This document shows, one piece after another, positions 770 through 2,525 of a stretch of 64,000 nt of DNA. The stretch lies in the NCBI GenBank assembly GCA_016839165.1, contig CP069300.1, positions 2,976,001 to 3,040,000 of the forward strand. The letters run 5' to 3'. Positions within the stretch are counted from its first letter, which is position 1. Each line of letters begins with the position of its first letter. The translations under genes and the position numbers were made by a program. Under the pieces are notes generated by a model, which saw nothing but the letters and a program-made list of their open reading frames with translations, did not search any database and was not told the origin of the DNA. The DNA is from Bradyrhizobium sp. PSBB068. Lineage in GTDB: Bacteria; Pseudomonadota; Alphaproteobacteria; Rhizobiales; Xanthobacteraceae.

Positions 770-818
770 GCAGGGTCGTCCCCGCAGATGGTATGGTGAG
801 GAGAAGGTCGTCCCTCTC
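770..818 (-). promoter_or_regulatory. Guanidine-II (mini-ykkC) riboswitch upstream of sugE
   Basis: Read on the minus strand there are two short hairpins, each with an ACGA tetraloop. P1 (818-801) has a 7-bp stem GAGAGGG/CCTTCTC including one G-U pair. P2 (785-770) has a 6-bp stem GCGGGG/CCCTGC including one G-U pair. A 15-nt linker separates them, and P2 ends seven bases before the Shine-Dalgarno GGAGG of sugE. Two small stems with identical ACGR loops just before a ribosome-binding site is the defining architecture of guanidine-II, in which guanidinium drives loop-loop pairing and turns translation on. I see the structure directly; ligand response is inferred from the class. Confidence 0.88.
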
Positions 819-905: not shown

Positions 906-2525
906 ATGTCCGATACCGCTGCAACCACCGAATCGCCGTCCCGCTCGCCGCTGTCAGAAGAAGTAGCGCGACGGCGCACCTTTGCGATCATCTCGCACCC
1001 GGACGCCGGCAAGACCACGCTGACGGAAAAGCTGCTGCTGTTCGGCGGCGCCATCAACCTCGCGGGCCAGGTCAAGGCCAAGGGCGAGCGGCGCAACACG
1101 CGTTCGGACTGGATGAAGATCGAGCGCGAGCGCGGCATCTCAGTCGTCACCTCGGTGATGACCTTCGAATTCAACGAGCTGGTGTTCAACCTGCTGGACA
1201 CGCCGGGCCACGAGGACTTTTCGGAAGACACCTACCGCACGCTGACCGCGGTCGACTCCGCGGTCATGGTGATCGACGCCGCCAAGGGCATCGAGGCGCG
1301 CACCCGAAAGCTGTTCGAGGTGTGCCGGCTGCGCGACATCCCGATCATCACCTTCATCAACAAGATGGACCGCGAGAGCCGCGACACGTTCGAGCTTTTG
1401 GACGAGATCGAGAAGACGCTGGCGCTCGACACCACGCCGATGACCTGGCCGGTCGGCCGCGGCCGCGACTTCCTCGGCACCTACGACGTCGTCAACGGCG
1501 GCGTCCGGCTGCTCGAGGGCGGCGGCGCCAAGACCGGCGCCACCGAGCAGATCGACATCGCCGATCTCGGCAAGCGCAACCCCAATCTCGACGTTGCCGA
1601 AGTCAAGGACGAGCTCGCGCTGGCGTCGGAGGCCTGCAAGCCGTTCGAGCTCGCGGCGTTCCGCGAAGGCCATCTGACGCCGGTCTATTTCGGCAGCGCG
1701 CTGCGCAATTTCGGCGTCGGCGACCTGCTTGAGGGGCTCGGTAAGTTCGCGCCCGCGCCGCGCGCGCAGGATTCCGATCTGCGCAAGGTCGAGGCGGCCG
1801 AGCCGCGCATGAGCGCGTTCGTGTTCAAGATCCAGGCCAACATGGATCCGAACCACCGCGACCGCATCGCGTTCGCCCGGCTGTGCTCGGGTAAGCTCAG
1901 TCGCGGCATGAAGGCCAAGCTGGTGCGCACCGGCAAGAACATGAGCCTGTCGAGCCCGCAATTCTTCTTCGCGCAGGACCGCTCGGTGGCGGACGAGGCG
2001 TTCGCCGGCGACGTCGTCGGCATTCCCAATCACGGCACCTTGCGGATCGGCGACACCCTGACCGAAGGCGAGGATCTGACCTTCGTCGGCGTGCCGAGCT
2101 TTGCGCCGGAAATCGTCCGCCGTGTTCGCCTCACTGATGCGATGAAGGCGAAGAAGCTCAAGGAAGCCTTGCAGCAGATGTCGGAGGAGGGCGTCGTGCA
2201 GGTGTTCCGCCCGCGCGACGGCGCGCCGGCGCTGGTCGGCGTGGTCGGTCCGCTGCAGCTCGACGTGCTGAAGGCGCGGCTCGATGCGGAATATTCGCTG
2301 CCGGTCGAGTTCGAGGTCTCTGAATTCTCGCTGGCGCGCTGGATCTCATCTGACGACCGCAAGGCGCTCGACGCTTTCATCTCCGCCAACAATTCCGGCA
2401 TCGCCGACGACGTCGACGGCGATCCGGTGTTCATGGCCAAGAACGAGTTCTATCTCGGCTACACCCGCGAGCGCGCCGAGGGCATCACCTTCTCCAACGT
2501 CAAGGACGTGAAGAAGAAGGCGTGA
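906..2525 (+). CDS. prfC: Peptide chain release factor 3
   Basis: RF3 is the GTPase that recycles RF1/RF2 from the ribosome after termination. The 539-residue product is close to the usual 530. The G-domain motifs are present in order: P-loop SHPDAGKTT near residues 30-38, the switch region RGISVVTS, DTPGHEDF, and NKMDRE. The C-terminal half follows the RF3 layout (FRPRDGAPALVGVVGPLQLDV). An in-frame ATG exists 87 bases earlier at 819, but it would add a leader unlike RF3 and would begin at the edge of the oppositely oriented riboswitch, so I use the ATG at 906 (MSDTAATTES). The gene stands alone and is followed by repeats. Confidence 0.95.
   Translation: MSDTAATTESPSRSPLSEEVARRRTFAIISHPDAGKTTLTEKLLLFGGAINLAGQVKAKGERRNTRSDWMKIERERGISVVTSVMTFEFNELVFNLLDTPGHEDFSEDTYRTLTAVDSAVMVIDAAKGIEARTRKLFEVCRLRDIPIITFINKMDRESRDTFELLDEIEKTLALDTTPMTWPVGRGRDFLGTYDVVNGGVRLLEGGGAKTGATEQIDIADLGKRNPNLDVAEVKDELALASEACKPFELAAFREGHLTPVYFGSALRNFGVGDLLEGLGKFAPAPRAQDSDLRKVEAAEPRMSAFVFKIQANMDPNHRDRIAFARLCSGKLSRGMKAKLVRTGKNMSLSSPQFFFAQDRSVADEAFAGDVVGIPNHGTLRIGDTLTEGEDLTFVGVPSFAPEIVRRVRLTDAMKAKKLKEALQQMSEEGVVQVFRPRDGAPALVGVVGPLQLDVLKARLDAEYSLPVEFEVSEFSLARWISSDDRKALDAFISANNSGIADDVDGDPVFMAKNEFYLGYTRERAEGITFSNVKDVKKKA

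Follow-up and report, generated by a model that had tools for sequence, protein, structure and literature searches.

For other guanidine-II RNAs, earlier studies establish or propose that guanidinium is bound by means of a kissing loop and that translation is thereby switched on (PMC5486947, PMC9561414, PMC9094411, PMC7544219). The published models differ in the partner which masks the Shine-Dalgarno sequence, this being the linker (PMC9094411), a P0 helix (PMC9561414) or a stem-loop that overlaps hairpin P2 (PMC5486947). A deletion of 20 bp that takes in P2 was associated in E. coli with constitutive expression of gdx (PMC13064478). In the literature at hand, masking by the ligand-binding loop is described for other members of the class only as a model or as a remark on single sequences, and titles and abstracts of the open-access literature showed no study of a guanidine-II or mini-ykkC element from Bradyrhizobium.

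The element considered here lies on the minus strand at 818-770 of a window of 64,000 nucleotides from Bradyrhizobium sp. PSBB068, and it precedes a gdx/sugE gene. It shares with the riboswitch of E. coli sugE/gdx both the class of RNA and the family of the gene. The two may differ in the anti-Shine-Dalgarno sequence, which has been modelled in the linker for E. coli (PMC9094411) and may be formed in Bradyrhizobium by the loop and 3' arm of P2. For Gloeobacter violaceus, Huang et al. similarly proposed a potential stem-loop over P2 and the ribosome site which is mutually exclusive with the aptamer (PMC5486947); that proposal is a remark on one sequence, whereas 77 related sequences are compared here.

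The guanidine-II element and the gdx gene

In the defining respects tested, the element is an ordinary member of the guanidine-II (mini-ykkC) riboswitch class. Hairpin P1 (818-801) has seven base pairs (818-812 with 807-801) and an ACGA loop at 811-808, as read from the sequence, the alignment with Rfam family RF01068 and covariation in 90 same-genus orthologs. Hairpin P2 (785-770), apparent in the sequence, the RF01068 match, folds and duplex tests, has six pairs (785-780 with 775-770) and an ACGA loop at 779-776. Both loops belong to the ACGR type and are closed by G-C pairs, as the class requires, and the loops, closing pairs and stems are all intact. The linker of 15 nt (800-786) falls inside the range of 7-40 nt given for the class (PMC7544219). 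A gap of 7 nt (769-763) separates P2 from the Shine-Dalgarno sequence GGAGGG (762-757), which together with the spacer to the start codon occupies 762-751 (based on sequence, fold and genus comparison), and the ATG of gdx follows at 750. The features shared with RF01068 are thus the two ACGR hairpins, the GG/CC closing pairs, the short linker and a position adjoining the ribosome site of gdx. A preliminary description of the locus had already given the identical tetraloops, the 15 bases between the hairpins and the seven bases before the Shine-Dalgarno sequence, and its coordinates and spacings are right for the minus strand. It had also placed G-U pairs at matching depths in the two stems. 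The G-U pairs are the third pair of P1 (814-805) and the fourth pair of P2 (783-772), so the argument for a real RNA that was built on their depth falls.

A cmscan search with Rfam 15 matched RF01068 (Guanidine-II) at 819-771 on the minus strand with 34.4 bits (E 0.0037), over the gathering score of 32 bits, which is the outcome that the preliminary description had anticipated for the covariance model. This was the sole Rfam match at gathering thresholds in the whole window. The two strands of the window together have a single instance of two GGACGRCC copies spaced 16-49 nt apart, and such a pair arose in 2 of 100 dinucleotide shuffles of the window. Folding energy gave no signal (z -0.35, with 70 of 200 shuffles at least as stable), and the z-score was dropped as proof of a real RNA. 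Transcription attenuation was rejected as a mode of control, as no terminator-like site was found on the gdx strand between the element and gdx.

The gene downstream (750-436, minus strand) encodes a protein of 104 amino acids which, as judged from its sequence, is a Gdx-type SMR exporter and a predicted exporter of guanidinium. The product matched PF00893 with 95.1 bits (cut-off 23.7) and NF008512, the NCBIfam equivalog for SugE, with 145.2 bits (cut-off 126). The nearest solved chain is that of the SMR guanidinium exporter Gdx-Clo (PDB 6wk5, E 1e-30), as compared with E 6e-9 for the best EmrE chain. In an ungapped comparison with Gdx-Clo, 58 of 103 residues are identical and E13, W16, S42, Y59 and W62 are kept. 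These five have been described as residues of the guanidinium site, and W16 is conserved in Gdx where Qac proteins have Gly or Ala (PMC7695847). The preliminary description took the architecture of the riboswitch to fix guanidinium as the likely substrate. The riboswitch alone does not do so, but the residues of the protein add to the case. Among the best 80 of 553 matches, the nearest named relatives are from Bradyrhizobium, with 98% identity to B. tropiciagri. The same genome has a second SMR gene which is without the hairpins.

Divergent from gdx is prfC (906-2525, plus strand), which encodes peptide chain release factor 3 (NF001964/TIGR00503). Its N-terminus was found inside the roughly 3-kb locus for each of the 30 best gdx loci in the genus. 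An additional in-frame ATG of prfC lies at 819, at the very edge of the antisense riboswitch. Since the family matches begin downstream of both candidate starts, the start at 906 is an assumption.

Conservation within Bradyrhizobium

A protein search of 98 genomes of the genus found a match in at least 94. Every listed match with at least 72% identity was taken in along with a sample of weaker ones, and the 130 nt before each start were examined. Among the matches listed, 90 same-genus orthologs have at least 74% identity; by a strict stem rule, both hairpins are present in 77 of these, one in 12 and none in one, and both loops are ACGR in 83 of the 90. No such hairpin was found before any of the 17 sampled SMR paralogs with less than 74% identity. 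The two-hairpin element travels with the gdx ortholog group. Of the next nine orthologs, which are 95-98% identical, eight have both hairpins by the strict rule and the other (L036) has a single mismatch in P1. A genome-scale Rfam search with stricter filters placed 28 of 60 relatives over the cut-off, and two genomes with no reported match in that search (G005 and G018) have both hairpins (L073 and L061). The sequences of the genus are related by ancestry, so the 77 do not represent 77 independent events.

Pairing in P1 is supported by covariation. Pairs 3-7 are paired above the level of shuffled alignments, the observed count being reached by 0, 0, 8, 4 and 1 of 500 shuffles, and changes on both sides were seen 10, 14, 2, 4 and 6 times, respectively. 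Variation at pairs 1 and 2 is of no use for this test, and covariation at pair 8 is unsupported among the 90 orthologs (409 of 500 shuffles reach the count). P2 hardly varies among the 90 orthologs and therefore cannot covary, which leaves it uninformative in this respect. At its fourth position (783-772 in the window), 86 of the 90 orthologs have a G-U pair, whereas the pairs of P1 vary. The U of this pair would also pair with the A of GGAGGG in the OFF helix proposed below. The length of the linker ranges from 10 to 22 nt across the orthologs of the genus, and the linker is largely common to the closest of them. Among the natural orthologs, L072, L046, L056, L060, L082, L089, L095, L100 and L113 have a loop or closing pair of P1 or P2 that is changed. 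The changes among these upstream regions include ACGC loops, for example, and L072 is altered in both hairpins. The genomes of L089, L095 and L100 carry another copy of gdx.

A possible -10 element, CATATA (829-824, minus strand), would place the transcript start at about 818, where P1 begins. Among the 77 orthologs with both hairpins, CATAT is found 18-22 nt ahead of the P1 loop in 63 and 33-36 nt ahead of it in 8, and it does not occur within 45 nt in 6. TTG stands exactly 17 nt before CATAT in 63 of the 77 orthologs and 16 nt before it in one, and it was found at none of the spacings 14, 15 or 18-21. The two features coincide in 53 of the 63 orthologs that have CATAT near the P1 loop. In orthologs with CATAT/TTG the transcript would, on the strength of these motifs, start at the first bases of P1. 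The window reads AATGCG (852-847) at the place of the -35 element and is without TTG, and a consensus promoter scan of this region of the window found no promoter.

Carboxylase operons and PACE exporters

A second guanidine-II match in the same genome (G000:C1:828063-828111; L001 1501-1549) has 45.6 bits. It precedes genes for UAAP1, UAAP2 and a urea/guanidine carboxylase of the urea carboxylase family (L064 5319-13162) and follows a putative ABC transporter of the urea type. The upstream ABC-ATPase gene contains this riboswitch within its 3' coding end, and the stop codon of the ATPase overlaps the next start codon as ATGA. The loci examined include 24 with the ATPase tail motif; in 19 of these the frame of the ATPase continues across both hairpins, and in 5 it stops before P2. 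Because 34 of 48 other frames are open as well, openness alone is not evidence, and the idea that the ATPase frame is open unusually often across this riboswitch (19/24 as opposed to 34/48) was rejected. The ATGA overlap is present in 8 of the 24 loci (L001, L005, L006, L011, L015, L154, L290 and L291), four of them in the genus of the window, and it places the RNA within coding sequence in those eight. A stop-to-start offset of 4 was found in 11 of the 24 loci, which are the 8 with ATGA, L283 with a possible GTGA, and L158 and L167, where the GTG is probably not a start. Different clades retain the RNA but encode the tail in different frames (GTT, RDDP).

In several rhizobial families, PACE-family genes (PF05232, 'chlorhexidine efflux') are also preceded by guanidine-II elements; PF05232 was matched by the proteins of L023, L164 and L018. 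For the L023 protein, 28 matches are listed, in 26 of 198 genomes of the order. L311, L326 and L327 represent the same gene of one tandem array, so that the 28 entries correspond to 26 distinct PACE genes. Two ACGR hairpins were found upstream of the PACE gene in 14 of the 28 loci scanned; for random stretches taken from these loci the figure was 7 of 1120. The loci with two upstream hairpins are L300, L301, L303, L305-L310, L312, L313 and L317-L319; L306, L307, L312, L313 and L318 among them were recognised solely by the hairpin scan, the last three with a long linker. Further PACE-linked loci are L013 (G052), L018, L023, L164 and L292. Ten PACE genes begin 17-25 nt after a match to RF01068 (in G040, G050, G052, G498, G795, G803, G835, G864, G884 and G889), of which four matches are near the cut-off (G498, G803 and G864 are among the matches of this kind) and that of G835 is below it. 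Chlorhexidine is a bisbiguanide. The arrangement of these loci suggests that guanidinium or a guanidinyl compound is the natural cue, and perhaps the cargo, of the riboswitch-linked subgroup of PACE proteins. Titles and abstracts of the open-access literature showed no study that links guanidine-II RNAs to PACE genes.

Proposed masking of the ribosome site

The element very probably acts as a guanidine-II translational ON switch for the export of guanidinium by Gdx. The preliminary description had proposed a guanidine-II riboswitch in front of a Gdx/SugE exporter gene, and that identification is supported by the RF01068 score, the Gdx-type gene, the retention of the element with orthologs and the covariation in P1. 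In the proposed mechanism, rising guanidinium would turn on translation of the guanidinium/H+ antiporter Gdx. Based on what is known of the class, two guanidinium ions would be held by a loop-loop kiss between P1 and P2, and the Shine-Dalgarno sequence would thereby be freed. Comparison within the genus suggests that, when ligand is absent, the P2 loop and 3' arm (GACGACCCUGCC) may pair with the ribosome site (GGAGGG..GUY, up to AUG); in the window this OFF helix would join 762-751 with 780-769 and would contain one bulged U and one bulged G. As the P2 loop would then serve both the ligand and the masking of the ribosome site, the two would compete. Were the transcript to begin at P1, as the possible promoter implies, little 5' flank would be left for a masking helix of the Pseudomonas type.

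The commonest ribosome site, GGAGGGUCGUC, occurs in 36 of the 77 riboswitch-associated gdx genes and is complementary to the P2 loop and 3' arm. The mean duplex energy with the consensus P2 string is -16.5 kcal/mol for the 77 riboswitch gdx genes, which have 36 distinct 14-nt sites in this comparison, as opposed to -6.3 for the 17 SMR paralogs and -8.4 for 224 other genes. When each distinct combination of P2 and ribosome site was considered, 25 of 26 did better than the mean obtained with the spacers of other genes, and 25 of 26 did better than the mean obtained with shuffled spacers. The spacer ends in YGUB in 21 of the 26 distinct combinations and in 13 of 202 control genes. Pairing of the site with P2 has a probability above 0.5 in 61 of the 71 transcripts modelled from the possible start; L120, L122 and L123 differ in that P1 is the partner of the site in the model. 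If the 5' flank is folded as well, the main partner of the site is the 3' arm of P2 in 55 of the 77, that of P1 in 14, the linker in 4 and the flank in 4. These data for the genus favour a model of the G. violaceus type, in which P2 and the ribosome site form a stem-loop, extended here into the loop.

Several results point the other way. In the window's own copy, the loop and 3' arm of P2 are partly complementary to the ribosome site in folds and duplex tests, and the pairing has an energy of only -11.2 kcal/mol, a value reached by 18.8% of other genes. In the minimum-energy fold for the transcript that begins at 818, P2 is retained and the linker masks the site, whereas a fold that includes the 5' flank and 12 nt of coding sequence shows P2 pairing with the site. 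When P1 and P2 were imposed on the 71 modelled transcripts, in a nearest-neighbour model that is without kissing and ligand energy, mean pairing of the site went from 0.96 to 0.72 and was below 0.3 in none of the 71. Clean release of the ribosome site by the aptamer was thus not seen in this model.

Complementarity was also sought outside the genus. For 30 SMR loci the values were -10.7 versus -9.6 (p 0.08), with 3 of the 30 in the top 5% of controls; the 30 are an incomplete set, since at least three SMR loci (L174, L182 and L184) were classed as 'other'. For gdx genes outside Bradyrhizobium, 29 with hairpins and 29 without gave -9.0 versus -8.5, and of the 80 start positions in that comparison 4 are neither ATG nor GTG and hence misplaced. 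Over all 62 loci, from which L149 was left out for want of a motif pair and in which starts were set by a first-residue pattern that may be wrong for some (L166), none of the four regions considered (5' flank, P1, linker and P2) gave better pairing with the ribosome site of its own locus than with those of the other loci. A general rule that the ribosome sites of guanidine-II genes are complementary to the P2 loop is therefore unsupported outside the genus, and Bradyrhizobium differs from RF01068 loci elsewhere in that its ribosome site is more complementary to the P2 loop than are those of gdx genes in other genera. Given the weak pairing in the window copy, the incomplete release in the model, the lack of an effect outside the genus and the shared ancestry of the sequences, the proposal that the P2 loop and 3' arm serve as the anti-Shine-Dalgarno sequence in Bradyrhizobium has, from sequence comparison, about an even chance of being right, and it is less certain for the window's own copy than for the genus.

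The same counter-results make masking by the linker a serious rival for the window copy. It is possible that the riboswitch is held OFF by an anti-Shine-Dalgarno sequence in the linker next to P2, as proposed for E. coli (PMC9094411), rather than by the P2 loop. Part of the linker can pair with the ribosome site in the window copy, as it does in the minimum-energy fold from 818, and the closest orthologs largely share this linker. Across the genus, however, linker length ranges between 10 and 22 nt, only 4 of the 77 have the linker as the main partner of the site, and the site pairs with P2 in 61 of the 71 modelled transcripts; masking by the linker thus stands as a plausible reading which, on present evidence, is somewhat improbable. 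Masking by a P0 helix, in which the 5' flank pairs with the Shine-Dalgarno sequence as modelled for Pseudomonas aeruginosa (PMC9561414), is quite unlikely here. The flank is the main partner in 4 of 77 when it is folded, but in 53 of the 77 orthologs a CATAT/TTG pair at 17-nt spacing, 18-22 nt ahead of the P1 loop, puts the transcript start at P1, so that little of the flank would be transcribed; the window copy is without the TTG.

Least probable, and very unlikely, is that the element is a decayed relic which no longer responds, leaving gdx constitutive or silent. Its score of 34.4 bits is below the 45.6 bits of the second copy in the genome, a canonical -35 element is missing from the window copy, and the strict rule finds altered hairpins in 13 of the 90 orthologs. 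The loops, closing pairs and stems of the window copy are nevertheless intact, and eight of the nine next orthologs (95-98% identity) keep both hairpins, with one P1 mismatch in L036.

A gene which NCBIfam names as a quaternary ammonium pump is here assigned guanidinium as its cue and, very probably, as its cargo, and the Bradyrhizobium genome has guanidine-II elements at two places, one at this exporter and the other at a carboxylase operon for assimilation. As for masking by the P2 loop, the ribosome site of Bradyrhizobium gdx may have evolved into an antisense copy of the ligand-binding loop, as the commonest site GGAGGGUCGUC set against GACGACCCUGCC would have it, a tentative reading that is rather less than an even bet. 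If it is true, the masking helix is in competition with guanidinium for the same four bases of the loop, and the switch does without a separate anti-Shine-Dalgarno sequence. The comparison within the genus would then offer a testable expression platform with the ligand loop itself as the mask over the ribosome site.
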